A stretch of 64,000 nucleotides of DNA from assembly GCF_009909615.1 (NCBI RefSeq), contig NZ_WWNE01000003.1, forward strand, positions 495,248 to 559,247. Direction: 5' to 3'. The translations under genes and the position numbers were made by a program. Below the pieces are notes generated by a model. It was not told the DNA's origin. It saw nothing but the letters and a program-made list of their open reading frames with translations, and searched no databases. Origin of the DNA: Acidiluteibacter ferrifornacis (GTDB taxonomy: Bacteria > Bacteroidota > Bacteroidia > Flavobacteriales_E > Vicingaceae). How positions within the stretch are numbered: position 1 is the first letter of the stretch; each line of letters opens with the position of its first letter. Shown here in pieces: positions 13,563 through 55,005 of the stretch.

Positions 13563-14126
13563 TTAACGTAGTTTTCCAACTAGTCTGAAATAATCTGATA
13601 ATGTCTTTGATAATGACTTACGATGTTTTTCAGAAATACCCAATTCTACTAGCTTGTCTTGCTGATTTCGAAAATAAAAATTAGATCCTGCAGTCAATTG
13701 CTCAAAAAAATGCGCTGCAAATATAAAATGAGCCTCTGCATCGGACCCATTTAGCATAAGTGTGTCACATCTATTTTTGTTTTTACTAAACAATCCACCA
13801 TCAATAAACGAATATGGATGAAACTCTGCTAAAATATAATTTTCGTCTTGTAACCAGTTATTGACTATTAGGAAGTTTAGTCCAACTAAAGTGGTGTCCT
13901 TTTCTCTGCTTTTTATCCGATAAAGAATATAATTTGCTTTATCATCTACAATTCGGTCATAAGAGAATGATCTCATATTTTTAAAGTAAAGTTCTGCAGA
14001 TTCTGTGCTATGAAAATTAACAGACCTCAAGTTTATACGCTTCGTTTTAGGACCAAATACTGCATAGAGTGTGGTCAGAACGAGCATAGAGAATAACCAG
14101 TAGAAGAAAATTTTTTTGAGTTTCAT
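13563..14126 (-). CDS. Membrane-anchored hypothetical protein
   Basis: A 187-residue protein from ATG 14126. An earlier in-frame codon at 14135 adds three residues and is less likely. One N-terminal transmembrane helix (KIFFYWLFSMLVLTTLYAVFG) is followed by an extracytoplasmic domain of about 160 residues with no motif I know. It is divergent from crtZ across an 80-bp gap that holds the 28-bp inverted repeat described at 14170, so the two genes may be co-regulated. Confidence 0.65.
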   Translation of the reverse strand: MKLKKIFFYWLFSMLVLTTLYAVFGPKTKRINLRSVNFHSTESAELYFKNMRSFSYDRIVDDKANYILYRIKSREKDTTLVGLNFLIVNNWLQDENYILAEFHPYSFIDGGLFSKNKNRCDTLMLNGSDAEAHFIFAAHFFEQLTAGSNFYFRNQQDKLVELGISEKHRKSLSKTLSDYFRLVGKLR

Positions 14127-14169
14127 TTGCAACACAATATTGAAAATTAAACATTCGAGACTCAGAACT

Positions 14170-14197
14170 GTTTAATCTGGTTGAAAACTGATTAAAT
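14170..14197. promoter_or_regulatory. 28-bp inverted repeat over the crtZ promoter (candidate light-regulator operator)
   Basis: GTTTAA (14170-14175), 16 bases, then TTAAAT (14192-14197). The inner arms extend to a perfect TTTAATC/GATTAAA pair. The -7 element TAAATTTG (14193-14200) overlaps the right arm. The same geometry, GTTTAA-N16-TTAAAC, covers the promoter of the sigma-crtIB string at 53975-54002. Confidence 0.5.
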
Positions 14198-14200
14198 TTG
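14193..14200 (+). promoter_or_regulatory. crtZ -7 element TAAATTTG
   Basis: An exact TAnnTTTG match ending 6 bases before ATG 14207, so the message is probably leaderless or nearly so. Confidence 0.55.
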
Positions 14201-14206
14201 CTTCAA

Positions 14207-14671
14207 ATGGAAACGACTTTATACATAATGGTCACCTTAGCTACATTCTTCTTTATGGAATTTATGGCTTGGTTTTCCCATAAATATATCATGCATGGAT
14301 TTGGGTGGTACTTACACAAGGACCATCATCAACCTCATCCAGGTTGGTTTGAGAAAAATGATATTTACTTCATCTTCTATGCGGTCATTAGCACTGGGCT
14401 GTTTTTACTTTGGCAGCTAGGTATTTTCAAATTTGGTTTATCAATTGGTTTGGGTATTCTATTATACGGAATAGCCTACTTTTTGGTGCATGACGTTTTT
14501 ATCCACCAACGATTCAATTGGCTTAAAAAGACGGACAATATCTATTTTAGAGCTATTAGGAAAGCCCACAAAGTGCATCACAAACATTTAGGAAAAGAAA
14601 AAGGGGAGTGTTTTGGTATGCTCCTAGTACCTATGAAGTATTTCAAAGAAGCGGCCAAGTCGAACAAATAG
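14207..14671 (+). CDS. crtZ: Beta-carotene 3-hydroxylase (CrtZ)
   Basis: A 154-residue integral membrane di-iron hydroxylase of the fatty-acid-hydroxylase superfamily, which adds 3-OH groups to beta-ionone rings to make zeaxanthin-type carotenoids. All histidine boxes are visible: SHKYIMHG, HKDHHQPHPG, HDVFIHQR and HKVHHKH. Hydrophobic helices surround them. ATG 14207 is chosen because an upstream TTG (14198) lies inside the -7 element. It sits 37 kb from crtI/crtB, and no lycopene cyclase is seen in the window. It is followed 36 bp later by an FeS photolyase gene. Confidence 0.92.
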   Translation: METTLYIMVTLATFFFMEFMAWFSHKYIMHGFGWYLHKDHHQPHPGWFEKNDIYFIFYAVISTGLFLLWQLGIFKFGLSIGLGILLYGIAYFLVHDVFIHQRFNWLKKTDNIYFRAIRKAHKVHHKHLGKEKGECFGMLLVPMKYFKEAAKSNK

Positions 14672-14707: not shown

Positions 14708-16243
14708 ATGTCAAAAACGTTACGACTAATTCTTGGAGACCAATTAAATATCAATCATAGTTGGTTCAACAAAACTGATTCAACCGTTATTTATTGCATG
14801 ATGGAAATGCGTCAAGAGACGGATTATACAACTCATCACATTCAAAAAGTAATTGGATTTTTCTCCTCAATGCGAGAATTCGCAAGTCAGTTGAAAGACG
14901 GCGGCCATGAAATAATTTATTTAAAATTAGACGACCATAATAACAAACAGACTCTTAGAGAAAACCTCAAATCCATCATAGAATCTGAACAAGTGGATTT
15001 GTTTGAATATCAACTTCCAGATGAGTATCGTCTAGATGAACAATTAAATGAGATTTGCAATTTTTTAGAAGTTGAAACACGTAGTTATGATTCTGAACAT
15101 TTCTATACGTCTAGAAAAGAATTAAGCAATCACTTTGAGGGCAAAAAACAGTGGGTTATGGAGAGTTTCTATCGCATGATGCGTGAGAATCACAATGTGC
15201 TTATGCAGGGCAGCAAACCTATAGGCGGCAAATGGAACTACGATGCTAGTAACCGAAAAAGATTGCCTCAAAAACATAAACCTACACTTCCTCTTGTTTT
15301 CAATCATGATGTTTCAGATTTGCTAAACATTATAAATAAAGCCGGGGTTAAAACAATTGGTTATATAGACTCAAAACATTTCGTTTGGCCAATAAATCGA
15401 AGAGAAAGCCTTGATCTATTGGATTATTTTTTAGAGAATTGTTTACCACTTTTTGGAGACTTTCAAGATGCTATGGCTGTTAATGAATGGAGCGTCTATC
15501 ATTCTAGAATATCCTTCTCATTAAACTGTAAACTAATCTCCCCTAAAGAGGTAGTTGATGCTGCGATTGATTATTATCAAAAAAATAAGGACAAAGTTGA
15601 CATATCTCAAATAGAAGGATTCGTTCGTCAAGTTATTGGATGGAGAGAATATATGCGTGGCATGTATTGGGCAAAAATGCCTGAATATGGGAAAATCAAC
15701 GAATTAAACAATAAACATAAATTACCTAAATTTTATTGGACGGGTAATACAAAAATGAACTGCTTAAAGACAGCTATTAACCAATCGCTGGCATATGCCT
15801 ACGCTCATCACATTCAGCGGCTCATGATCACAGGCAATTTTGCCTTACTTGCAAGTGTTGACCCTGACGAAGTAGAGAGTTGGTATTTAGGAATTTATAT
15901 TGATGCTATTGAGTGGGTAGAAATGCCAAATACTAGGGGAATGAGCCAATATGCTGATGGAGGTCTGATTGCTACAAAGCCATATATTTCTTCAGCTAAT
16001 TACATCGATAAAATGAGTAACTATTGCGGCAGTTGCTATTACGATAAGAAGCAGAAAACGGGCAACAAATCATGTCCGTTTAATAGCTTATATTGGAACT
16101 TTATTTCCCGCCATGAAGAATACTTGTCCTCAAATCCTCGAATGGGTATGATGCTAAATCTGTGGAGAAAGATGGATGGGGAGCAACAATCAAATATTCT
16201 TGAACAAGCTGAATTCTATCTAAATCATATCAATGATTTATAA
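14708..16243 (+). CDS. Iron-sulfur bacterial cryptochrome/(6-4) photolyase (FeS-BCP, DPRP family)
   Basis: A 511-residue photolyase-related protein. The N-terminal Rossmann-like domain begins LRLILGDQLNINHSWF, as in the DPRP family. The FAD-binding helical domain follows, with the conserved GWREYMRGMYW. Four cysteines fit the [4Fe-4S] cluster of this family: Cys352, Cys440, Cys443 and Cys456, in MNC and CGSC...C contexts. Their spacing equals that recalled for PhrB of Agrobacterium, offset by two. Characterised members repair (6-4) photoproducts or act as photoreceptors. It lies 36 bp after crtZ on the same strand, so it probably shares that light-regulated transcript. Its stop overlaps the convergent 16238 gene by 6 bp. 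Confidence 0.93.
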   Translation: MSKTLRLILGDQLNINHSWFNKTDSTVIYCMMEMRQETDYTTHHIQKVIGFFSSMREFASQLKDGGHEIIYLKLDDHNNKQTLRENLKSIIESEQVDLFEYQLPDEYRLDEQLNEICNFLEVETRSYDSEHFYTSRKELSNHFEGKKQWVMESFYRMMRENHNVLMQGSKPIGGKWNYDASNRKRLPQKHKPTLPLVFNHDVSDLLNIINKAGVKTIGYIDSKHFVWPINRRESLDLLDYFLENCLPLFGDFQDAMAVNEWSVYHSRISFSLNCKLISPKEVVDAAIDYYQKNKDKVDISQIEGFVRQVIGWREYMRGMYWAKMPEYGKINELNNKHKLPKFYWTGNTKMNCLKTAINQSLAYAYAHHIQRLMITGNFALLASVDPDEVESWYLGIYIDAIEWVEMPNTRGMSQYADGGLIATKPYISSANYIDKMSNYCGSCYYDKKQKTGNKSCPFNSLYWNFISRHEEYLSSNPRMGMMLNLWRKMDGEQQSNILEQAEFYLNHINDL

Positions 16244-38289: not shown

Positions 38290-39198
38290 ATGAATATGAA
38301 AAACTTATTAATTGCTATTATTACATTAGCCTTCACGATTACATTCACTTCTTGTGAAAAAGAAACCTCACTAACTCCAAATCCGCTTTATAACCAAACT
38401 CTAAGTCAACCTCAGAGTTTCCAAGCTGATATTGATAGTTCTACCTATATTTTTAACATAACTACTAGTGTTGAATCTAGTGGACTTCTAAATCTGGAAG
38501 GCGTAAAGGGAAACTATAAAATAGTAGTGGTTACTAGCTCATTAACACCTGGTGTATATAAAACAATAGATAATGGTTTGAATAATGTTAGTATATATAT
38601 CAATAATGGTGTAATGGGCATCTATTCTAGTGCATTTGTACCAGTGCCTGACATGGAGGTTAAAATTAATTCTTTCGATGCTATAAATAGAACCATTACA
38701 GGGTCTTTCAGTGGTTTGGTGCAGGATATTAGCACAAAAGATACCATTCGAATATCAAATGGAATCTTCACCAATGTAAAAGTATTAAAAGGCCCAGATG
38801 TAAACTTGGGAAAGATGACTGCAAAAATAGATGGAACTCCTTTCGAGTCATACTTTTGTGTTCAAACCAGTGCATCTTACAATGGCTTTGAAATAAGCCA
38901 AATAGATGGATCAAGCACCGGAGTTAACAAATCGTTGAAGCTGTTATTTGATGATAAAATTAAAACCGGAACATTTAATATTGACGGATTTGATATTTCT
39001 GCGCAGTATTATGCCAACTTATCATCAAATCAAGACCCATTTAAAGATATTTATGATGGAATAAGCGGATCAATAGTAGTGAGCAAAGTAGACACCGTTG
39101 CCAAAATAGTAGAAGGTACTTTTAACTTTGAGGCTTTAAATATAGATTCTGACACCGTGAAAGTAACTGACGGTAAATTTGAAGCAGTAATTCAATAG
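38290..39198 (+). CDS. Lipoprotein of unknown function
   Basis: A 302-residue lipoprotein. The signal peptide ends in lipobox FTSC, followed by CEKETSLTPNPLY, nearly the same mature start as the Omp28-like lipoprotein at 8849. The body is beta-rich, with two repeats of related shape (GLLNLEGVKGNYKIVVV..., LNIDSDTVKVTDGKF). No enzyme motif is evident. ATG 38290 is used; ATG 38296 is possible. Its 3' end overlaps the convergent DASH cryptochrome gene by 7 bp. Confidence 0.75.
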   Translation: MNMKNLLIAIITLAFTITFTSCEKETSLTPNPLYNQTLSQPQSFQADIDSSTYIFNITTSVESSGLLNLEGVKGNYKIVVVTSSLTPGVYKTIDNGLNNVSIYINNGVMGIYSSAFVPVPDMEVKINSFDAINRTITGSFSGLVQDISTKDTIRISNGIFTNVKVLKGPDVNLGKMTAKIDGTPFESYFCVQTSASYNGFEISQIDGSSTGVNKSLKLLFDDKIKTGTFNIDGFDISAQYYANLSSNQDPFKDIYDGISGSIVVSKVDTVAKIVEGTFNFEALNIDSDTVKVTDGKFEAVIQ

Positions 39199-40604
39199 TG
39201 CTTTTTCCAATAATCTGGTGGAAGAATAATTAACTTAGGGTAGTCAACGACATCCAAATGGTTAAATAAAGTTTTAGGAGAGGCCCACGGATGGTGGACC
39301 TCTTTTTTTTCCACATTATTTAATTCAGGAATCCACAACCGAACGAACTCCCCTTGACTATCATAATTTTTTGCCTGAAGAATAACATTAAAAAACCGAT
39401 CTCTACTGTCATTTCCAACTCCGGCAATATACATCCAGTTTCCATAATTGCTACAAACATCATAATCCAGTAACATAGATTCAAAGTATTCTGCCCCTAC
39501 TCTCCAGTCTTGTTGAAGCTCCTTCACAAAAAAAGATGCTACATTCTGCCTCCCTCTGTTACTCATAAAGCCTGTAGCGGCTAATTCTCTCATATTAGCA
39601 TCAATAAACGGAATACCCGTTTTTCCTCTTATCCAAGCATTTACAAATTCTGGATTCGGATTCACCAAATTCTGATGACCATTTATTCCATAGGAATGGA
39701 AAATTTTATTGCCATTTTTTAAAGCAGTATATTTAAAAAAGTCTCTCCAAATCAATTCAAATATAAGCCAGTAAGTAGAATCATTAGAATAATATTCGTG
39801 CTCAAACCTCTTAACTTCCCAATAAATATGTCGAGGAGAAATACATCCATTCCATAACCAAACTGATAGTTTACTAGAATAATCGGCACCTATTAATCCA
39901 TTTCTTTTTTCTTTGTATAGGAGTAGTTCTTGTGATTCATAAAAATAATGATTCAGTCTATTGTTTGCTTCATCTTCTCCACCTTTGAAAGCAAGAACTG
40001 ACCGATTATCCTTAATAGGATTTGAAAATTTAAAGTCGTTGAGAGACGGTATAGTCCCTTTTTGAATCCTGTTAGACAAGTTATTGAGCTTGGAGGGTAG
40101 GGCAATGCAGGGCCGAATAGAGGTATTTCTTTCTAATAGCTTCCGAAATGAAGTAAAAATAAAAGGGGTATCTTCTAAAGCAAAGGGTATATCATCTGGG
40201 TGAAACAAAAAAGCATCGTAGGCATATTCTATTGAACCATTAAAAACTCTTTCTACTCTTCTTTCTAACTCAACCTCTTCAAAAGTTATTTCTTTTTGAG
40301 TGTAAATCGTAGTTGCATTTGTTTCAAGTGATAAATGCTTTAAATATGAAGCAGTATTTCCAACTCTAATCACTAAATCACTTCCTACTTTTCTGAGGTT
40401 TTCTCTTAAATTTTGAACACTTTCAATAAGTAACTGAGCTCGATGGACTCCTATTTTAGGATAGCCAAACTTAGTCGTTGAAAATAGAATCTCGTCAAAA
40501 CAATAAAAGGGGATTACAATAGAATGATTTTTCAATGCTTTGGTTAGCGATTCATTATCATGTAATCTTAAGTTATTTCTAAACCAAACTATTGCAACGC
40601 TCAT
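39192..40604 (-). CDS. DASH-type cryptochrome/photolyase
   Basis: A 470-residue flavoprotein from ATG 40604. The frame extends to 40643 but those codons are the tail of a different gene, DUF2256, read in another frame. The N-terminal photolyase domain begins VAIVWFRNNLRLHDNESL. The C-terminal FAD domain has LIWRDFFKYTALKNG, GKTGIPFIDANMRELAATGFMSNRGRQNVASFFVKEL and the WRVGAEYFESMLLDYDVCSNYGNW stretch typical of cry-DASH. Such proteins repair CPDs in single-stranded DNA or act as photoreceptors. It forms a run with DUF2256 and DUF2892 on the same strand. Confidence 0.92.
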   Translation of the reverse strand: MSVAIVWFRNNLRLHDNESLTKALKNHSIVIPFYCFDEILFSTTKFGYPKIGVHRAQLLIESVQNLRENLRKVGSDLVIRVGNTASYLKHLSLETNATTIYTQKEITFEEVELERRVERVFNGSIEYAYDAFLFHPDDIPFALEDTPFIFTSFRKLLERNTSIRPCIALPSKLNNLSNRIQKGTIPSLNDFKFSNPIKDNRSVLAFKGGEDEANNRLNHYFYESQELLLYKEKRNGLIGADYSSKLSVWLWNGCISPRHIYWEVKRFEHEYYSNDSTYWLIFELIWRDFFKYTALKNGNKIFHSYGINGHQNLVNPNPEFVNAWIRGKTGIPFIDANMRELAATGFMSNRGRQNVASFFVKELQQDWRVGAEYFESMLLDYDVCSNYGNWMYIAGVGNDSRDRFFNVILQAKNYDSQGEFVRLWIPELNNVEKKEVHHPWASPKTLFNHLDVVDYPKLIILPPDYWKKHY

Positions 40605-40737
40605 TCTTTTTATTTCTTCTACACTTTTCTCCACAGTATACAACTGTATTCCAACTCAACCTCCACTTCTTTCTCCAAAAGAATGGTCTATTACAAGTTG
40701 GACATATTTTTTGTGGTAAGTCTCTTTTATTAACCAA
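40579..40737 (-). CDS. DUF2256 small cysteine-rich protein
   Basis: A 52-residue protein too short for usual gene calling. Read on the minus strand from TTG 40737, it begins VNKRDLPQKICPTCNRPF, continues WRKKWRLSW, and ends YCGEKCRRNKK. This is the DUF2256 pattern: CPxCxRPFxWRKKW followed by YCxxxC, a probable four-Cys zinc site. No ATG is available in frame. TTG places the N-terminus exactly where the family begins. Its 3' end overlaps the cryptochrome start by 26 bp, and DUF2256 genes are known to accompany photolyase or cryptochrome genes, so it is very probably real. Confidence 0.85.
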   Translation of the reverse strand: MVNKRDLPQKICPTCNRPFFWRKKWRLSWNTVVYCGEKCRRNKKNERCNSLV

Positions 40738-41016: not shown

Positions 41017-42465
41017 TTATTGTGACAAAACAATCTGTTTTGCCATATTTTTGAATATAAACCCGTGAAAAGGTAAAACAGAATACCAATATAAACGGCC
41101 TGCCAAACCTTTGGGACGAAAAGTAGCCGTCTGGACCATGCAAAAACCTTCCAGTCCACCTGCGATAGGAATGATTTTGAATTCTAGCCATGCATCTCCT
41201 GGCAACTTCATTTCAGCATATAATAATAATCTAACATTTACCTCATCTGCTAAAAGCACCCTCCAAAAGTCCAAAGAATCTCCAGCGTGGATATCTGTAG
41301 GACTACGTCTTCCCCTTCTCAAGCCTACTCCCCCCACTAACTTATCCATATGGCCACGAATCTTCCATAGAAAATTTCCATAGTACCAACCTTTGTTACC
41401 CCCAATGGACCAAATGTTCCGCTTAACTTGATCAAATTTTGATGCTTCAAAAGCTACCTTCTTAACATCTTCAAATGTTCCATTTTGTGGTACTTCTATA
41501 TAATCATTTAATGAAGACTCCGGATGTATAAAATGATCCGAATCTACCCATGAAGAAACAACCATATTTTGTTCTATCCTTTTGAATGCCAACTGCACCG
41601 CTTCTTTATAAGTAAATAGCTTTATTTTAATTATTTCATGCAAGTCGTTTTTTACAATGACTTCATTTTTCATGCTGTCCACTAAGTTGACCGCCAAATG
41701 GTAAGAAGTTGAGGTTACAAAATAAAGCCAATAAGATGAAATGCGAGGACTGAATACTGGGACTGTAAAAATAAATCTCTTTATCCCTCTAACCTTTGCA
41801 AACTCTAACAACATTTGTTTATAGGTAAGTATGTCTGGACCTCCGATGTCGAAGGTTTTGTGATACGTTTTTTCATTCAGGGCCGCAAGAGTCAGGTATT
41901 CAATTACATTTCGAATACCAATAGGTTGACATTTCGTATTCAACCATTTTGGAGCAATCATTACAGGCAACTTTTCCACTAAATCCCGTATAATTTCAAA
42001 ACTAGCACCACCTGACCCTATTACAATCGCTGCTCGAATTACGGTAGTGGGCACCTTAGATTGCTGCAAAACATCTTCTACACTTTTTCTACTTGTGAGG
42101 TGCTTTGATAAATCGGAATCATTAGAAATACCTCCAAGATAAATTATCTGCTTTGCACTCGATCGATCAATATATTCTTTAAAGTTTTCAGCTGTTTGCT
42201 GCTCCATTTCTTCAAAATCACCTTTGGAAGTGGATAAAGAGTGTATTAAAAAATAGGCAACATCAAAATCCTCGGGCAATTCTGAAAGTGTTTCACGTTT
42301 TAAAAAATCTGCTTGATAAACTGTTACTAAACATTTCATCGAGGTGTTTATTGACAATCTATTTTTATCTCTAACCACCGCATAGACTTGGTGTCCATTT
42401 TGTGTTAAACTAGATAATAATCGTTTTCCGATGTAACCATTTGCTCCTGTTAGTAAAACTTTCAA
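41017..42465 (-). CDS. NAD(P)-binding SDR-like protein with DUF2867 (YbjT type)
   Basis: A 482-residue protein. The N-terminal Rossmann fold begins MKVLLTGANGYIGKRLLSSL (extended SDR, NmrA/YbjT-like, about 1-300). The C-terminal part (about 320-480) with GGVGLRRGRRSPTDIHAGDSLDFWRV and KLPGDAWLEF is DUF2867, an SRPBCC-like region. A role in light or redox response is suggested only by its repeated company with cryptochrome genes in this phylum. It is divergent from an SRPBCC gene across a 69-bp gap. Confidence 0.87.
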   Translation of the reverse strand: MKVLLTGANGYIGKRLLSSLTQNGHQVYAVVRDKNRLSINTSMKCLVTVYQADFLKRETLSELPEDFDVAYFLIHSLSTSKGDFEEMEQQTAENFKEYIDRSSAKQIIYLGGISNDSDLSKHLTSRKSVEDVLQQSKVPTTVIRAAIVIGSGGASFEIIRDLVEKLPVMIAPKWLNTKCQPIGIRNVIEYLTLAALNEKTYHKTFDIGGPDILTYKQMLLEFAKVRGIKRFIFTVPVFSPRISSYWLYFVTSTSYHLAVNLVDSMKNEVIVKNDLHEIIKIKLFTYKEAVQLAFKRIEQNMVVSSWVDSDHFIHPESSLNDYIEVPQNGTFEDVKKVAFEASKFDQVKRNIWSIGGNKGWYYGNFLWKIRGHMDKLVGGVGLRRGRRSPTDIHAGDSLDFWRVLLADEVNVRLLLYAEMKLPGDAWLEFKIIPIAGGLEGFCMVQTATFRPKGLAGRLYWYSVLPFHGFIFKNMAKQIVLSQ

Positions 42466-42481
42466 GTTGATTTTATTTTAA

Positions 42482-42488
42482 GTTAAAC
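42482..42488. promoter_or_regulatory. GTTAAAC half-site between the YbjT-like and SRPBCC genes
   Basis: GTTAAAC, with downstream AAATTT, resembles one arm of the crt operator (GTTAAACAAAATTT on the minus strand near 53970). No second arm is found at the correct 16-base spacing, so this is a weak candidate. Confidence 0.25.
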
Positions 42489-42534
42489 AAATTTCTATTG
42501 TTTATTGTTTGAGAAATATTGTAAAATACGAAAC

Positions 42535-42990
42535 ATGCATAGATTATCACGAACAAGTCGATTACCCATTTCACTTGAGAAAGCTTGGGATTTTTTTTCT
42601 TCTCCTAAAAACCTAAAAGAAATCACACCTGACTATATGGGTTTTGATATTACTTGTACACTTCCAGAAAAAATGTATCCTGGAATGATTATTACTTATA
42701 AAGTGAAGCCTCTATTAGGAATACCAATTGGTTGGATGACAGAAATTACTCATATAGAAGATAAAAAATTCTTTGTAGATGAACAACGAGTAGGGCCGTA
42801 TACTATTTGGCATCATCAACATCATTTTAAAGCTATAGAAGGCGGAGTAGAGATGATTGATACTGTAGACTATGTTTTACCTTTAGGACTTATAGGAAGG
42901 GCTTTAGAACCGATTTTAGTAAGAGGGAAATTGAAAGAAATTTTTGATTATAGAGAGAAAAAAGTGGAAGAGCTATTTGGTAAATTTTAA
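42535..42990 (+). CDS. SRPBCC-family ligand-binding protein
   Basis: A 151-residue protein from ATG 42535; the codon at 42505 adds an unconvincing tail. It has the START-like helix-grip fold pattern of the coenzyme Q-binding/polyketide-cyclase family: RLPISLEKAWDFFSSPKNLKEITPDYMGFDI at the start, then GWMTEITHIED, FVDEQRVGPYTIWHHQHHF, and MIDTVDYVLPLGLIG. The ligand is unknown. Divergent from the YbjT-like gene, as commonly seen with photolyase/cryptochrome clusters. Confidence 0.85.
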   Translation: MHRLSRTSRLPISLEKAWDFFSSPKNLKEITPDYMGFDITCTLPEKMYPGMIITYKVKPLLGIPIGWMTEITHIEDKKFFVDEQRVGPYTIWHHQHHFKAIEGGVEMIDTVDYVLPLGLIGRALEPILVRGKLKEIFDYREKKVEELFGKF

Positions 42991-47911: not shown

Positions 47912-49213
47912 CTAACTCAGCGCATTTTTGTATGTATCTAAAGCCCTATTTCTAGCCATTTTGTGTTCTACTATTGGATCAGGGTATTGGTCTGTATTCC
48001 ATTCTTTTACCCATTTTTTGATGTATTGGTAATCTTTATCAAACCGTTTGATTTGTTCAGATGGATTAAAAACTCTGAAATATGGTGCTGCGTCTACCCC
48101 TGTTCCAGCTGCCCACTGCCAATTTCCATTATTGGCAGACAATTCATAGTCTAATAGCTTTTCTGCAAAATAAGCTTCTCCCCACCTCCAATCAATTAAT
48201 AAATGTTTTGTTAAAAAGCTTGCTACAACCATTCGTACCCTGTTGTGCATAAACCCCGTCTGATTTAATTCTCTCATACCCGCATCTACCAATGGGTATC
48301 CTGTTTTACCCTCACACCACAACTGAAACTCCTCTTCGTTATTTCTCCATCTTACAGCATCGTACTTCCGATGAAAATTATTCGAAACAACATCTGGATA
48401 ATAATTCAATATGGTCATAAAAAACTCTCTCCATATTAATTCATTTAAAAACACCTCACTCTTTTCCTTAGCTCTTGTGGCAATTTCTCGTATAGAAACC
48501 GTACCAAACCTAAGATGAACACCTAACTTAGAAGTACTGCCCTTAGCTGGAAAATCACGCTCCTCTGCATAAGCTTCTAAAATTTCATCTTTAAGTTTAG
48601 AACTAGGTATTTCAATATTGGTTAACTCAAACCCTAACTCATTTAAAGTTGGAGGTTTGAATTCGGACGGATTCCACCCATCAAATCGCAGTGCAGATGA
48701 GTATGACTCTAATTGATTTTTCTGCAATACTGATTTCCATTTCCTGCTATAAGGAGTATATACTAAATATGGCGTCCCATCATCTTTTAACACTTGTCCT
48801 GGTTCAAGAATTACTTGATCTTTAAAACTATAAAAAGAAATATCTTTAGCATTTAAAAATTTCCTTACCCACTCATCGCGTTCTTTAGCATAAGGCTCAT
48901 AGTCGCGATTTGAATAGACCGAATGAACTTTAAAATCTTCCACAATTTGCTTCCATACTTCCTTAGGTTTTCCGTGATATACCTTTATACTAGTCCCTTT
49001 AGTTTTTAAAGATTCATTTATATCACTCAAATTCTGATGAATAAAACTAACCCTTGCATCTGCTTTGTTTTTAAGGTCTGATAATATTTCCTCATCAAAA
49101 ATAAAAATAGGTTGTACTTTTTCTTCACCAGAAAGGGCATGGTACAAGCCTGTGTTATCTTGTAACCTTAAATCTCTTCTAAACCAGAAAATAGCTACTT
49201 TTTCGTTTTTCAC
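47912..49213 (-). CDS. phrB: Class I photolyase (CPD type likely)
   Basis: A 433-residue flavoprotein. It begins KVAIFWFRRDLRLQDNTGLYHAL (antenna-binding domain). The FAD domain has LNELIWREFFMTIL, GKTGYPLVDAGMRELNQTGFMHNRVRMVVASFLTKHLLIDWRWGE and LDYELSANNGNWQW. The closing FNPSEQIKRFD stretch is that of class I DNA photolyases, which split cyclobutane dimers with blue light. It is the last gene of the minus-strand crt/light string, 5 bp after a flavin reductase that could supply reduced flavin. It is a different family branch from the DASH protein at 39192. Confidence 0.92.
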   Translation of the reverse strand: MKNEKVAIFWFRRDLRLQDNTGLYHALSGEEKVQPIFIFDEEILSDLKNKADARVSFIHQNLSDINESLKTKGTSIKVYHGKPKEVWKQIVEDFKVHSVYSNRDYEPYAKERDEWVRKFLNAKDISFYSFKDQVILEPGQVLKDDGTPYLVYTPYSRKWKSVLQKNQLESYSSALRFDGWNPSEFKPPTLNELGFELTNIEIPSSKLKDEILEAYAEERDFPAKGSTSKLGVHLRFGTVSIREIATRAKEKSEVFLNELIWREFFMTILNYYPDVVSNNFHRKYDAVRWRNNEEEFQLWCEGKTGYPLVDAGMRELNQTGFMHNRVRMVVASFLTKHLLIDWRWGEAYFAEKLLDYELSANNGNWQWAAGTGVDAAPYFRVFNPSEQIKRFDKDYQYIKKWVKEWNTDQYPDPIVEHKMARNRALDTYKNALS

Positions 49214-49218
49214 TTTAT

Positions 49219-49839
49219 TTACATTAAAGGTTTTGCATAAGGTAATCGTTCAAGCAAGGAAGTTTTGTAGTAGGCATCTAATCCAGCTACTGTTATGGTT
49301 CCTAGTTGCTGAATATCGACAAAGCCATCTTCAGATATTTTATTCGTTGCCATTTCTATATGTATAATTTCACCTATTATGATGTAGGTTCCATTCAATT
49401 CAACGGTTTTAATTTCTCGCAGTTCCAGACCCATTTTAAGCTTACTCTCTTGAACAAAAGGAGCAGAGAAGCCATTTATAAATTGTTCATTCAGTCCTAC
49501 TGCTTTAAACTCAGATACGTTGGTATCATACCTTGCAGCAGATTGATGCGCTTTTCTATAAATAGTTTCATTCACATGATTTAGAGTGAACTGACCAGTA
49601 CTTCTAATATTTTCTAGAGTATGACGATCCACAGTATCCGGACGAGAAACCATCCCAATTAAAGGTGGATTAGCTCCTATATGGAAAATAGAATTAAAGG
49701 GAGCTAAATTAGTACCCCCATTTGAATGGATTGTTCCCACTAAATTCAAAGCTTTGAAACCCTCAATTGAATTGATGAAATTGGCTCGAAATCGCTGGTC
49801 TAGGTGCGCAATGTCTTTTTTACTAACTATTTTTTTCAT
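49219..49839 (-). CDS. FMN-binding flavin reductase-like protein
   Basis: A 206-residue protein of the flavin reductase-like/FMN-binding split-barrel superfamily. Landmarks are GTNLAPFNSIFHIGANPPLIGMV with the FMN-contacting Ser/Thr region, and NLVGTIHSNG before it. C-terminal EIIHIEM and IQQLGTITVAGLDAYY close the barrel. It overlaps the preceding SDR gene by one base and precedes the photolyase by 5 bp, so the three are one operon. It may reduce the photolyase flavin, though that is inference. Confidence 0.87.
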   Translation of the reverse strand: MKKIVSKKDIAHLDQRFRANFINSIEGFKALNLVGTIHSNGGTNLAPFNSIFHIGANPPLIGMVSRPDTVDRHTLENIRSTGQFTLNHVNETIYRKAHQSAARYDTNVSEFKAVGLNEQFINGFSAPFVQESKLKMGLELREIKTVELNGTYIIIGEIIHIEMATNKISEDGFVDIQQLGTITVAGLDAYYKTSLLERLPYAKPLM

Positions 49840-50531
49840 TATTTCAATCTACCCATTCCCCCATCAACATGCAATACTTGTCCGGTAATCCACGAAGATT
49901 TCTCTGTCAGTAAAAAAACCGCAGCATTAGCAATATCAGTTGCTAATCCTATTTTTTTTAGTGGATGACGTTCTGCATTCGCTTTTCGTTTTTCTTCAGA
50001 TGATAGTAAATTACTCGCTAAGGGTGTCTCGGTTAATGATGGAGCAACAAGGTTAACCCTAATCTTTGGTGCTAATTCTGAAGCGAGTGCCCTTCCAAAA
50101 CCTTCTAAAGCACCTTTAGCCATAGCCACTGATGTATGAAAAGTAAGCCCAGTTTGAACAGCTACTGTACTAAACATCACTATTGAAGCATTTTCAGACT
50201 TTTTTAATGCTGACAATGCTTGTTGAATCACTTTTGTAGCACCTAAAGTATTTAATTGTAATTCATCCAAAAATTCTTCTGTTTTTATTCGGTGAAAGGG
50301 TTTTAGACTTATTGAGCCCGGACAATACACCAAACCATCCAATTTTTCAGGAAGGTCTAATTCAAAAGTTTCTGTTACGTCAATATTTTGAAAGCTAACG
50401 TTATTCAAATCTTCAATATTGTTGCTTTCTCTAGAAGCAACAATAACCTCGTAACCAAGACTGACTAACTGACGTACAATCTGATTACCAATTCCTGAGG
50501 TTCCTCCGACTACTAAATACTTTTTACTCAT
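49839..50531 (-). CDS. Short-chain dehydrogenase/reductase
   Basis: A 230-residue classical SDR. The N-terminus KYLVVGGTSGIGNQIVRQL is the cofactor-binding motif. The NAG-type region is replaced by YCPGSISLKP. The catalytic Ser is in MFSTVAVQTG. The usual YxxxK position reads TSVAMAKGALEG, so the Tyr appears replaced by a Val or Ala while Lys remains; this subgroup (CYP-light clusters) may not be a normal oxidoreductase. The end WITGQVLHVDGGMG is typical. It lies between idi and the flavin reductase on the same strand. Confidence 0.87.
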   Translation of the reverse strand: MSKKYLVVGGTSGIGNQIVRQLVSLGYEVIVASRESNNIEDLNNVSFQNIDVTETFELDLPEKLDGLVYCPGSISLKPFHRIKTEEFLDELQLNTLGATKVIQQALSALKKSENASIVMFSTVAVQTGLTFHTSVAMAKGALEGFGRALASELAPKIRVNLVAPSLTETPLASNLLSSEEKRKANAERHPLKKIGLATDIANAAVFLLTEKSSWITGQVLHVDGGMGRLK

Positions 50532-50598: not shown

Positions 50599-51123
50599 CT
50601 AGGCTCTTTTTTCCAAACGTGACTTGACTACTTTCTCCCAACTCATCAAAAACCAAGGAGTATACTTCTCAGGATTTTCAAGAGTGTCAACTTCTAAGTA
50701 GCTAATATCTACCCACTTCCAATCATTTACCTCTAAGACATTTGGTTGAGGATGATTTGAGTAATGCCCAATAAATACATGATCATATTCATGCTCTATT
50801 AATCCATTAGAAAACTCTGCTCTGTAGGTAAATTCAAATTGTTTCACCAGTTCGCAATCAAATCCCATTTCTTCTAACAGTCTACGATGAGCAGCTTGTT
50901 CATTGGACTCTCCAGGCTGTTGATGACTACAACAGGCATTAGTCCATAAGCCTGGAGAATGATATTTATTTAATGCTCGCTGATGAATCATCATTTGATT
51001 GTGCTGATTGAAAATGAAAACAGAGAAAGCCCTATGAAGCAAACCTTTTTCATGAGCTTCAATTTTTTCCATTATTCCAATCTGATTATCAGATTTATCC
51101 ACTAAAATTACTGACTTCCCCAA
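50599..51123 (-). CDS. idi: Isopentenyl-diphosphate delta-isomerase, type 1
   Basis: A 174-residue Nudix-fold enzyme that interconverts IPP and DMAPP, the first branch point feeding carotenoid synthesis. The catalytic Cys is in WTNACCSHQQPGES. The Nudix-like helix reads AAHRRLLEEMGF, and the metal-binding EHEYDHVFIG segment is present. It starts 1 bp after crtB, on the same strand, so the isoprenoid supply is directly coupled to phytoene synthesis. Length is normal. Confidence 0.95.
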   Translation of the reverse strand: MGKSVILVDKSDNQIGIMEKIEAHEKGLLHRAFSVFIFNQHNQMMIHQRALNKYHSPGLWTNACCSHQQPGESNEQAAHRRLLEEMGFDCELVKQFEFTYRAEFSNGLIEHEYDHVFIGHYSNHPQPNVLEVNDWKWVDISYLEVDTLENPEKYTPWFLMSWEKVVKSRLEKRA

Positions 51124-51124
51124 A

Positions 51125-51961
51125 TTATAAAATGTTAAAACTGTGTTTAATATACGAACTCAATAACAAACCATATTTTTTATTGTTAGGAATACGAATT
51201 CTCTTGGCTAAAATTGTCGAAGGAGCGGTGCTCTGGATTTTTTTAAAAAGAGCATAGTAATAAACGTATGCGGTATACACTCCGAGTCTAGAATTTTTAG
51301 GCAATTGCTTAATTCCAATATAGGCGTCTTTAAAGTCCTGCTCAATGTCTGCTTCAATATTCTTTTTACACGACTCACTAAAAGAGCCTAGGTCTACATT
51401 TGGAAAATAACTTCTTCCCATATCCTTAAAGTCTTGCTTTAAATCCCTTAAAAAGTTGATTTTTTGAAAAGCGGCTCCCAATTTCATTGCAGAAGGCTTT
51501 AAATGTTGATATTGTTCTTCATTTCCTTGACAGAAAACCCTTAAACACATTAGTCCAACCACTTCCGCTGACCCTAATATATACTTTTCAAAACTCTCTT
51601 GATCAAACACTTTTTGAGATAAATCCATTTCCATACTGTAAAGAAATGCTTCAATCAACTCCTTCTCAATCCCGTATTGATTAACAGTGGCCTGAAATGC
51701 ATTCAATACAGGATTTAAACTTATACCTTCCGCTATTGATTGATAAGTGTCAGCTTTAAATTCTTGTAAAAGTTTTAATTTATCAAAGTCGTGAAAAGAA
51801 TCGACAATTTCGTCTGCTAACCTTACAAACCCATAGATGGCATAAATCGGTTGATGAATTTTTCTATCTAACACATAGATACCAATTGAAAATGAAGTAC
51901 TATATGCATTTGTAATTAGTTTACTAATTCTATTTGAGGTTTTATCGTAGAGTGCCTTCAT
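51125..51961 (-). CDS. crtB: Phytoene synthase
   Basis: A 278-residue enzyme that condenses two GGPP molecules to phytoene. Two Asp-rich Mg-binding regions are visible: VRLADEIVDSFHDFD near residue 50 and INFLRDLKQDFKDMGRSYFP near 165. The N-terminal KLITNAYSTSFSIGI is the usual entry of the trans-isoprenyl synthase fold. It starts 4 bp after crtI and is followed by idi. No geranylgeranyl-diphosphate synthase gene is present in the window. Confidence 0.95.
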   Translation of the reverse strand: MKALYDKTSNRISKLITNAYSTSFSIGIYVLDRKIHQPIYAIYGFVRLADEIVDSFHDFDKLKLLQEFKADTYQSIAEGISLNPVLNAFQATVNQYGIEKELIEAFLYSMEMDLSQKVFDQESFEKYILGSAEVVGLMCLRVFCQGNEEQYQHLKPSAMKLGAAFQKINFLRDLKQDFKDMGRSYFPNVDLGSFSESCKKNIEADIEQDFKDAYIGIKQLPKNSRLGVYTAYVYYYALFKKIQSTAPSTILAKRIRIPNNKKYGLLLSSYIKHSFNIL

Positions 51962-51965
51962 CTTT

Positions 51966-53438
51966 CTAATTTACTTTTTTTTGAACTAGCTCTGAAACCA
52001 CTTTCCCCGAAATAATAGAAGGTGGTACACCAGGTCCAGGTGTGGTTAATTGACCGGTAAAGAATAGGTTTTTCACTTTCTTATTAATCATAGACGGCTT
52101 AAAAATAGCCGTTTGACTCAATGTATTAGCCAATCCATATGCGTTTCCTTTAAAAGAATTATAATCCGAAACGAAGTCAGAATATCCGTAAAACCGCTTA
52201 TAGATAATATTGTTTTTTAAGTTCGTTTTTAACAGTCGTTCCATTCTCTTCAAAACATCATTTAAGTACATCTCCATCAACTCTTTATCCTCTTTCATGT
52301 CTGGGGCGGTGGGAATAAGTATAAAAATGTTTTCATGTCCCTCAGGAGCTACTGTTGGATCTATTTTCGATGGACAAGAAACATAAAACAGAGGTTTGCT
52401 TGGCCACTTGGGTGTATCATATATTTCTATTGCGTGATCATTAAAAGATTCGTCAAAAAACAAATTATGGTGTTGTAAACCATCAATCTTTTTATCAAAC
52501 CCCAAGTAATAAATTAAACTGGATGGTGCCATGATTCTAGAATCCCAATACTTTTGATCATACTTACGATATTTAGCCTCTAGAAGATGTTGCTCCACAT
52601 GATGATAATCTGCACCTGCTACAACTGCATCAAAATTTAAGTATTTATCATTAACAACTATACCATTAGCTGTTCCTTCTTTTACTTCTATTTTTGAGAC
52701 TCTATGATTTAAGTGAAATTTCACACCCAAACTGCTTGCCAACTTTGTCATTGCAGCCACAATGTTGTACATTCCGCCTTGAGGGTACCATGTTCCTAAT
52801 GAAATGTCAGCATAATTCATAAGGCTATATAAAGCCGGAGTTTTTGAAGGCTTTGCCCCTAAAAAAAGCACTGGAAACTCCATCAATTCAATGATATTTG
52901 GATGTTTAAAATACTTTCTAACGTGATCACTAAAAGAATTAAATAAGTTCAACTTTAATGAGCCTACTATCACCCTCCAATCTATAAATTCTGTGAATGA
53001 TAAAGACGGCTTGGTCACTAGGTCATTAATACCCACATCATATTTATACTTGGCGTCAGCTATAAACTGATCCAATCGATCACTTGCTCCTACTTCCTTA
53101 GATTCTAATAACGCTTTAAATGCGGAATAGTCAGCAGGAATATCCCATTTTTCTCCGTTTTGAAAGTAAACACTATATGAAGGATCCAATCGCAATAACT
53201 GATAATAATCTGATACTTTTTTACTAAAATCTGCAAAAAAACGGTCAAACACATCTGGCATCCAATACCAACTTGGTCCCATATCAAAAGTGAAACCATC
53301 ACTTGAAAATTGTCGAGCTCTACCACCTGTTTGTTCATTTTTTTCAAATACCTCTACCTGATATCCAGCTTTCGCCAAATAACACGCTGCAGAAAGCGAT
53401 GAAAAACCCGAACCTATTATTGCAATTTGCTTACTCAT
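51966..53438 (-). CDS. crtI: Phytoene desaturase
   Basis: A 490-residue FAD-dependent desaturase that converts phytoene towards lycopene. The N-terminal dinucleotide-binding fold IAIIGSGFSSLSAACYLAKAG is followed by FEKNEQTGGRARQF. The family segment TFDMGPSWYWMPDVF and the C-terminal LFFTGQLTTPGPGVPPSIISGKVV are diagnostic. It starts 10 bp after the ECF sigma gene stop on the same strand and is followed by crtB. Carotenoid products probably become zeaxanthin-like after CrtZ and a cyclase located elsewhere. Confidence 0.96.
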   Translation of the reverse strand: MSKQIAIIGSGFSSLSAACYLAKAGYQVEVFEKNEQTGGRARQFSSDGFTFDMGPSWYWMPDVFDRFFADFSKKVSDYYQLLRLDPSYSVYFQNGEKWDIPADYSAFKALLESKEVGASDRLDQFIADAKYKYDVGINDLVTKPSLSFTEFIDWRVIVGSLKLNLFNSFSDHVRKYFKHPNIIELMEFPVLFLGAKPSKTPALYSLMNYADISLGTWYPQGGMYNIVAAMTKLASSLGVKFHLNHRVSKIEVKEGTANGIVVNDKYLNFDAVVAGADYHHVEQHLLEAKYRKYDQKYWDSRIMAPSSLIYYLGFDKKIDGLQHHNLFFDESFNDHAIEIYDTPKWPSKPLFYVSCPSKIDPTVAPEGHENIFILIPTAPDMKEDKELMEMYLNDVLKRMERLLKTNLKNNIIYKRFYGYSDFVSDYNSFKGNAYGLANTLSQTAIFKPSMINKKVKNLFFTGQLTTPGPGVPPSIISGKVVSELVQKKVN

Positions 53439-53448
53439 ACTTTCAAAT

Positions 53449-53952
53449 CTAAGCGTAATCCTCTAAAGCTGATGTTAATTTTTTACGTGCCAGGAAGATT
53501 CTGCTTTTCACTGTACCTATTGGCATATTCAGTTCATCTGCAATTTCTTTATACTTGAAACCACTATTATGCATATCAAATGGAATTCTTACATCATCCT
53601 CTAACCGATCTACCTCTTTCTTAATTTCCTCATACCGCAAAGCCGAATCAGGCGTCTCTGATGCCGATTCTTTTGAGATATTTAAAAAATAAGATTCTTC
53701 CGTAGAATCGATAATGGTTTTTTGACGAGAAACCCTTCTATAATTATTGATGAATGTATTTTTCATTATGGTATACATCCAAGCTTTTAAATTTGTTGGA
53801 TCAACAAACTTTTCTCTATATCGTAATGCTTTAAGCAATGTTTCTTGCAATAAATCATTCGCGTCCTCTTGGTCTGCCGTCAATTTTAATGCAAAATACT
53901 TTAATGGATTCTGAAGCGAAACGATCTGATTGTTAAACTCTATTGCTGTCAT
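53449..53952 (-). CDS. ECF sigma factor heading the carotenoid operon
   Basis: A 167-residue ECF sigma factor. Region 2 includes KLTADQEDANDLLQETLLKALRYREKF and AWMYTIMKNTFINNYRR. Region 4 has FKYKEIADELNMPIGTVKSRIFLARKKL. No anti-sigma gene follows; crtI comes 10 bp later. The promoter in front of it lies within a 28-bp inverted repeat and next to a CarH-like gene, so light rather than an anti-sigma factor may set its level. Targets could include the crt and photolyase genes. Confidence 0.93.
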   Translation of the reverse strand: MTAIEFNNQIVSLQNPLKYFALKLTADQEDANDLLQETLLKALRYREKFVDPTNLKAWMYTIMKNTFINNYRRVSRQKTIIDSTEESYFLNISKESASETPDSALRYEEIKKEVDRLEDDVRIPFDMHNSGFKYKEIADELNMPIGTVKSRIFLARKKLTSALEDYA

Positions 53953-53974
53953 AGCTTAATGTTTTTTAAATTTT

Positions 53975-54002
53975 GTTTAACAAATGTATGTTTTAGTTAA
54001 AC
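53975..54002. promoter_or_regulatory. 28-bp inverted-repeat operator over the sigma-crtIB promoter
   Basis: GTTTAAC (53975-53981) and GTTAAAC (53996-54002) are perfect inverted 7-bp arms, 21 bases centre to centre, two helical turns. The minus-strand -7 element TACATTTG (53981-53988) lies between the arms, and a TTG lies 20 bases upstream of it. A repressor bound to the arms would block transcription. The matching layout at crtZ (14170) strengthens this. Confidence 0.6.
53981..53988 (-). promoter_or_regulatory. -7 element TACATTTG of the sigma-crtIB operon
   Basis: An exact TAnnTTTG match on the minus strand, 28 bases before the sigma factor ATG at 53952. It is the only good promoter candidate ahead of the carotenoid string. 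Confidence 0.6.
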
Positions 54003-54117
54003 ACAAATCAAAAAACCAGAGCACTTTTTTTGCTAAAATTTATTAAAAAAAGCAAAAAACAACACTCAATAAATTATAATTCAATGAGTTATGATGTTTA
54101 ATAAAATTAAAAATATA

Positions 54118-55005
54118 TTAAACAAGATTATTGTCCAAGAATTTTACGAAACCATTAACTTTTTTAAAAGTCTTTATATTATTCGGAAGCTTTAATGGTT
54201 GATGTTGAAGTTGAAAACCTGAAAGGACAATCGTTTTTCCTTTGCCCTCCTTAGAAAGACCATCGATATAACTTTGAATATCAATATCGGGAAATGGGGC
54301 TGTGAATGAACTAACAATACAATCGATATTTGGATGACTTTTGCACACACGTTGAACATCAGCAAATGGAACAAACTGACCCAAATATATGACCTTGTGT
54401 CCTCTTTTTCGTATTAAATAATTTGAAAACAATAAGCTCAGTTCGTGCATTTCATGCTCAGGCAAAAACAACAGAAAAGTTTTGTAATTGGGGGATAAGT
54501 AAGAAAATTTATCAGTTTCTGAAATGATCTTTTGACGAATAATATTACTTACAAAATGTTCTTGAGCAGGAGAAATGCTATCCGATAACCATAAAGAGCC
54601 CACCTTGTGTAAAAATGGATATACGATTTCCGTCATGGCAGTTTCCATGCCTGATTCAGCAATGAATGCATCAACCTTCTGTATAAAATCAACCTCATCC
54701 AAATCCATTAATGGTTGAAGTAAACTGTCAATTTTTTGAACCGTATTGGTGTCGGTATTGAGGTATTCTGCTACTTTCTGAGCGATCGCCTCTTGCTTAA
54801 GTTCAGCAATCTTTGAAATTTTTAATCCAGATCGATTAAGAATAGCAATGTTTAATAGCTTTTTTAATTGTTCATCATTATAAGTTCTGAAGTTGGTTTC
54901 CGTCCGGTTGGGATGAATGAGGTTGTATCTTTTTTCCCAAATACGAATAGTGTGCGCTTTTATTCCAGTAATCTGCTCCAGATCTTTTATGTTGTACTTC
55001 GCCAT
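54118..55005 (-). CDS. CarH/LitR-type B12-dependent light-sensing MerR regulator
   Basis: A 295-residue regulator. The MerR-type HTH (about 3-70) includes YNIKDLEQITGIKAHTIRIWEKRY. The cobalamin-binding module follows: a helical cap (about 90-165) and a Rossmann-like part (about 175-295). The photoreceptor motif Wx9EH is complete (Trp139, Glu149, His150), and the ExH motif with the lower cobalt-ligand His is present (Glu185, His187). In CarH, adenosylcobalamin-bound tetramers repress carotenoid genes in the dark and fall apart on illumination. It lies directly upstream of the sigma-crt operon on the same strand. Confidence 0.9.
   Translation of the reverse strand: MAKYNIKDLEQITGIKAHTIRIWEKRYNLIHPNRTETNFRTYNDEQLKKLLNIAILNRSGLKISKIAELKQEAIAQKVAEYLNTDTNTVQKIDSLLQPLMDLDEVDFIQKVDAFIAESGMETAMTEIVYPFLHKVGSLWLSDSISPAQEHFVSNIIRQKIISETDKFSYLSPNYKTFLLFLPEHEMHELSLLFSNYLIRKRGHKVIYLGQFVPFADVQRVCKSHPNIDCIVSSFTAPFPDIDIQSYIDGLSKEGKGKTIVLSGFQLQHQPLKLPNNIKTFKKVNGFVKFLDNNLV

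Follow-up and report, generated by a model that had tools for sequence, protein, structure and literature searches.

In the window, i.e. the whole 64,000-nucleotide stretch of Acidiluteibacter ferrifornacis DNA analysed here, the inverted repeat at 53974-54003 and its twin at 54095-54124 are, as judged from sequence, very probably the operator of the adjacent CarH/LitR-like regulator, a reading to which we assign a probability of about 0.83. The arrangement appears to represent a new, inverted-site variant of the CarH/LitR light-repressor system, with an operator that is solid in the gap between the regulator gene (carH in the following) and a sigma factor gene but doubtful ahead of crtZ. Light-induced pigmentation is known in Bacteroidota. 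Its mechanism in Chryseobacterium was still called unknown in a 2020 study (PMC7064467), and a search of the open literature returned no description of Bacteroidota CarH operators or of an operator TGTTTAAY-N14-RTTAAACA. A fixed 30-bp operator names its regulator and would predict targets in any sequenced genome, including B12-linked light control of proteorhodopsin in some relatives.

Putative operators in the carH-sigma gap

A preliminary description had reported GTTTAA-N16-TTAAAC at 53975-54002. This site is confirmed as a perfect 6 + 6 palindrome, and a third, perfect 28-bp copy, absent from that description, is found at 54096-54123. The features of the locus are as follows.

53974-54003, no strand: operator 1, TGTTTAAC-N14-GTTAAACA, covering the promoter of the sigma-crtIB operon
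54095-54124, no strand: operator 2, TGTTTAAT-N14-ATTAAACA, perfect, over the stop codon of the carH-like gene
53981-53988, minus strand: TACATTTG, by its sequence the sigma-A -7 element of the sigma-crtIB promoter, abutting an operator 1 arm
54118-55005, minus strand: CarH/LitR-like MerR-family regulator, 295 aa, the presumed binder (Pfam, fold and cobalamin-site residues)
53449-53952, minus strand: ECF-type sigma-70 factor, first gene of the putatively regulated operon (Pfam Sigma70_r2 and r4)
51966-53438, minus strand: phytoene desaturase CrtI (NCBIfam CrtID, above cut-off)
51125-51961, minus strand: phytoene synthase CrtB (squalene/phytoene synthase family)
50599-51123, minus strand: isopentenyl-diphosphate isomerase
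49839-50531, minus strand: SDR oxidoreductase, by its spacing likely in the sigma-crtIB operon
49219-49839, minus strand: flavin-reductase-like protein, likely in the sigma-crtIB operon
47912-49213, minus strand: DNA photolyase, by its spacing the end of the sigma-crtIB gene run

Operator 1 shows no mismatch to the 16-letter consensus (see below), and operator 2 sits between it and the body of the regulator gene. The two are separated by 121 bp, in a carH-sigma gap of 165 bp, and this distance is the same in 3/3 genomes of the window's genus, with the intervening DNA diverged. Operator 1 is in place in both sister genomes and carries 0-2 mismatches at the carH-sigma loci of the family; the letters of the -7 element TACATTTG are identical in locus L016. 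Scored with a family profile built without the own genome, the two sites reach 27.0 and 30.0 bits. The earlier proposal of an operator-like element over the sigma-crtIB promoter is upheld, and the adjoining CarH-like regulator appears its best assignment in view of the fixed geometry, the promoter overlap and the link to the regulator.

Consensus and half-site geometry

The consensus was refined on 59 distinct family sites to TGTTTAAY-N14-RTTAAACA, with 97% conservation of the outer T/A and a spacer that is merely AT-rich. The arms correspond to two inverted TAAACA half-sites, TGTTTA-N18-TAAACA, each fitting the CarH half-site TnnACA. Spacing was analysed by counting exact GTTTAA-Nk-TTAAAC for k = 4 to 30 at 31 family loci fetched by the regulator protein alone: 27 matches fell at k = 16, compared to 0-1 at every other k. 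Outside the family, 28 loci belonging to other families in the class gave the same peak (19 at 16 bp vs 0-1 elsewhere). Across 60 loci, the non-coding DNA contained 76 inverted TGTnnA/TnnACA pairs lying 24 bp apart, start to start, vs 1.2 after shuffling, whereas tandem 11-bp direct repeats of nnnnTnnACAn (6 pairs vs 2.5) were not clearly enriched in the same DNA; a canonical tandem CarH operator was set aside on this comparison. Direct TnnACA pairs at 21 bp are likewise in excess, which seems to arise largely from TTTG boxes that directly adjoin an arm (TTTG-TTAAACA, on the other strand). TAnnTTTG, the sigma-A -7 box consensus in flavobacteria (PMC9723704), lies over or within 15 bp of 40/83 operators, compared to 10.6 expected from shuffled spacers and flanks. 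At each of the two loci of the window such a box had been noted at the downstream arm, and this observation holds: TAAATTTG at 14193-14200 overlaps the right arm of the crtZ copy, and TACATTTG abuts the arm on the sigma side.

The copy upstream of crtZ

The second site of the preliminary description, GTTTAA-N16-TTAAAT at 14170-14197, is likewise present as reported. The features at this locus are as follows.

14170-14197, plus strand: crtZ-promoter copy, GTTTAA-N16-TTAAAT, with 2/16 consensus letters wrong and 6.8 bits
14193-14200, plus strand: TAAATTTG, by its sequence the putative crtZ -7 element (TAATTTTG in the sister genome), making up most of the supposed right arm
14148-14156, plus strand: TAAACATTC block, conserved in the sister genome along with the TGTTTAA of 14169-14175 (two-genome alignment)
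14207-14671, plus strand: CrtZ-like hydroxylase, as assigned in the preliminary description
14708-16243, plus strand: FeS photolyase-related protein (Pfam DPRP), 36 bp after crtZ
13563-14135, minus strand: divergent gene, 190 aa, a neighbour of crtZ in other genera too

The hydroxylase gave no Pfam or NCBIfam match. The claim that crtZ and the sigma gene share the same 28-bp repeat stands for the letters that had been chosen, but not by the family profile, in which the crtZ copy is far below the 27.0 and 30.0 bits of the carH-sigma sites and level with background, as two further positions in the window reach 6.6-6.7 bits. From the sequence, the crtZ copy is probably not a true operator. That it could be a true but weakened operator of the CarH-like regulator is suggested by its exact left arm (TGTTTAAT) and correct spacing, by its place among the about 14 sites with at most two mismatches to the consensus in the 3.5-Mb genome, and by the retention of TGTTTAA in the sister genome along with TAAACATTC, these two half-sites facing each other 15 bp apart. 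We nevertheless regard this as unlikely, though with a real residual chance. Apart from the low score, the right arm is the -7 box TTAAATTTG, and an exact operator is impossible with the box at that place, since the C required by the arm would fall on a T of the box. In addition, the spacing in the sister genome is 17, and conservation elsewhere is missing: no exact copy was found upstream of crtZ at 29 other family crtZ loci (0/29), the nearest match, with one mismatch, falling within the terminal part of idi (L095). Ten stand-alone crtZ promoters instead contain, at the equivalent position, another inverted repeat of the form TAACAA-N13-TTGTTA, which is exact in 8 and has one mismatch in 2. 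The further suggestion that the crtZ copy controls the FeS photolyase and the divergent membrane protein gene hinges on this site and is equally weak. In those genera in which crtZ lies downstream of crtB and idi, the gene order indicates that co-regulation could proceed through the operon promoter.

The repeat TAACAA-N13-TTGTTA (e.g. L117 and L127-L133, at about 1501) is absent from the crtZ promoters of the window's genus and is a candidate site for a second regulator of crtZ, perhaps also of the FeS photolyase. A 25-mer of this form, identical in two species, is located between an ECF-type sigma gene and a uvrA-like gene (G000:C22:90796-90820, i.e. L228:5097, and G001:C1:889655-889679, L108).

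The regulator and its co-occurrence with the motif

The regulator matches Pfam MerR_1 (3.5e-15), as its N-terminal DNA-binding domain, and B12-binding_2 (2.5e-8). Its AlphaFold2 model (pLDDT 88) found CarH (5c8e) as best Foldseek match, and a VIA-align superposition on 5c8e_C gave Z 20.3 and rmsd 2.9 over 197 residues, the matched part being residues 86-293. A full B12 fold, with a helical bundle and a Rossmann-type B12-binding domain, is predicted. The protein contains WLSDSISPAQEH, a W-x9-EH motif, and W139, E149, H150 and H187 are invariant among 13 aligned family sequences; the motif and the lower-ligand histidine (lower face) belong to the cobalamin site. As its score of 91.4 bits against the NCBIfam CarH equivalog NF052513 is far below the cut-off of 400, the protein is called CarH-like rather than a CarH equivalog.

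The family set comprised 46 genomes, identical to the set for the order, and was searched by the regulator protein, so that the loci were not picked by the motif. The regulator was matched in 32/46 of these genomes, with a 65%-identical protein in Vicingaceae AH-660-G13, and in 189/295 genomes drawn from the class. Nearly all family carH loci feature one to three copies of the motif, exact or with one mismatch, next to carH, crtI or the sigma gene; the copy at the equivalent place in genus g3 has two mismatches. Among the 32 genomes encoding the regulator, 51/97 exact sites are exact 30-mers, compared to 1/31 among the 14 genomes that lack it (Fisher p 1.6e-7, counted on sites, related sites not being independent), and the lone 30-mer of the latter group stems from a 79%-complete assembly.

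As the carH-less genomes have also lost many target genes, the same correlation could be obtained from a second regulator that was lost together with carH. The motif might then be bound by this other protein, inherited and lost with carH; an example would be the TetR_C_23 protein, as a site is found at its gene in two genomes. Further regulators occur within the regulon (L159, L179), and the link between carH and the motif is a genomic one. We give this a small chance, given that the half-site TAAACA fits the TnnACA of CarH and that the site adjoins carH in most of the family genomes possessing the gene, and in other families too, often standing ahead of carH itself.

The sigma factor and motif abundance

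Assignment to the CarH-like regulator also has to be weighed against a promoter function. The motif lies immediately upstream of the sigma gene, also in G003, where carH is unlinked, as would be expected for a promoter read by the product of that gene, the ECF-type sigma factor whose gene stands between carH and crtI. This reading is very improbable and was rejected: genera g5, g8, g15 and g16 keep the motif beside carH and crtI but have no sigma orthologue (best match about 30% identity), so that the motif is not a sigma promoter. Moreover, it is palindromic, stands at variable distance from the genes and has a separate TAnnTTTG box alongside.

Raw counts of the motif are unremarkable. The window contains 9 matches at one mismatch or fewer vs 4.9 in shuffles (sd 2.8), i.e. 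not above chance, and across the 3.5-Mb genome the equally loose motif gave 25 matches vs 70 in a reversed control, hence no enrichment. The enrichment ahead of light genes, proposed earlier as a check, holds strongly at the family level (see below). Exact 28-mers occur three times in the genome, twice within the carH-sigma gap and once inside a tolC-like gene (C16:383815), the latter being rejected as an operator and ascribed to chance. The 16-letter consensus is matched with 0 mismatches genome-wide only at the two carH-sigma sites. It is placement, not raw count, that exceeds chance, and only near-perfect sites carry signal. The repeats as mere chance palindromes of AT-rich intergenic DNA, in keeping with totals not above controls both in the window and genome-wide, are refuted as regards the carH-sigma pair by the single-spacing peak and the conservation across families, and as a general explanation are practically excluded. 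For many isolated one-mismatch matches chance is the likeliest reading, and possibly for the crtZ copy.

Proposed mechanism and comparison with known systems

From the element, its conserved geometry, its promoter overlap, its co-occurrence with the regulator and its link to light genes, as read from the genomes, together with the modelled B12-module fold, we infer physical binding and repression, dependence on light and B12, and a role for the second operator. By analogy to CarH, an adenosylcobalamin-loaded oligomer of the regulator would bind the paired half-sites in the dark. Operator 1 covers the -7 box that serves the sigma-crtI-crtB-idi-SDR-flavin reductase-photolyase run, so that the bound regulator would block RNA polymerase. 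Light would break the complex, as for CarH, and free the promoter, so that carotenoid synthesis and photorepair would be switched on together. Operator 2 may add cooperativity or stop readthrough from carH.

Like CarH of Thermus thermophilus and Bacillus megaterium, a B12 photoreceptor repressor, the regulator combines a MerR-type domain with a B12-binding domain, in the same predicted fold and with the same cobalamin-site residues. The half-site TnnACA and an operator over a carotenoid-gene promoter are shared as well (PMC9304148). CarH of Thermus and Bacillus reads TnnACA in tandem 11-bp direct repeats (PMC9304148), three or four of them, whereas two inverted half-sites, 24 bp start to start, are observed here. 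In the published complex of CarH with DNA, a single head-to-tail dimer touches the first and third of the 11-bp repeats (PMC9304148), i.e. sites 22 bp apart, which puts the half-site distance found here within reach, albeit one DNA-binding domain would have to be turned round to fit inverted half-sites. If true, the DNA-binding unit of CarH can use inverted half-sites in addition to tandem ones.

The CarA/CarH operator of Myxococcus xanthus likewise concerns a carotenoid promoter and the same regulator family, and inverted repeats have been described for it (PMC9304148). However, it is a single operator of ~55 bp with several repeats, in contrast to the compact 30-bp palindrome that is found here ahead of many unlinked genes. 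Class II LitR of Pseudomonas (PplR1, PmlR2) provides a further parallel, with two half-sites per site and a light regulon including photolyase and FolE (PMC9758184). Its site T(G/A)TACA-N12-TGTA(C/T)A (PMC9758184) differs in half-site and spacing, and class II LitR is without the full B12 module, PmlR2 acting via a LOV protein, unlike the full B12 fold predicted here.

The predicted regulon

All exact family sites were retrieved along with their flanking DNA, and protein families were checked on representatives. The genes behind promoter sites include carH, crtI and the sigma gene, as well as those for DNA photolyases, proteorhodopsin-like proteins and glutathione peroxidase. Pterin synthesis is represented by GTP cyclohydrolase I (FolE) and 6-pyruvoyl-tetrahydropterin synthase (PTPS), and further members are fasciclin and DUF4397 surface proteins, SRPBCC, TetR_C_23 and a DUF2867 oxidoreductase. 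At the family level, this is the strong enrichment ahead of light genes that had been put forward as support for the operator. The gene content resembles the light regulon of LitR in Pseudomonas putida, which contains photolyase, FolE and cryptochrome (PMC9758184).

We slightly favour the broader reading of a Bacteroidia-wide, B12-dependent light repressor acting on inverted CarH half-sites, with a wide light regulon in the family (proteorhodopsin, photolyases, pterin-cofactor synthesis and oxidative-stress genes). If this applies, one photoreceptor would couple light harvesting with light protection. The own genome shows few targets beyond the sigma-crtIB operon, namely fasciclin and perhaps crtZ. 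In a gene-led comparison, i.e. with orthologues not chosen by the motif, 7/14 fasciclin genes had a site with 0-1 mismatches within 115 bp. The own-genome site, G000:C9:214336-214365 (L004:1500-1529), has one mismatch, and its distance to the gene is the same in one sister; this fasciclin gene is likely a regulon member outside the window.

In three genomes (L165, L168 and L171, at about 1500) an exact operator is located 60-80 bp ahead of proteorhodopsin-like genes. For the pump of these three genomes, control by light or B12 is predicted from the sequence.

Within the window, the DUF2867 gene (41017-42465) was rejected as a target, a good site being present in only 2/22 orthologues. The gap between it and a divergent SRPBCC-like gene (ATG at 42535) contains the degenerate half-sites GTTAAACA, TGTTTATTGTTTGA and CGAAACA at 42483-42535, and both gene types have exact operators in other genera. 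A further photolyase/cryptochrome gene, at 39192-40643, has no good operator upstream.

A separate inverted repeat, GTTTAATTCCGTT-CATTAAAC, recurs in four genomes (G005, G009, G043 and G044) at the unrelated loci L051, L197, L199, L183, L212, L214 and L220. One copy lies ahead of a gene with a Cas12a-like N-terminus. The repeat looks like another element rather than an operator, and it was set aside as such.
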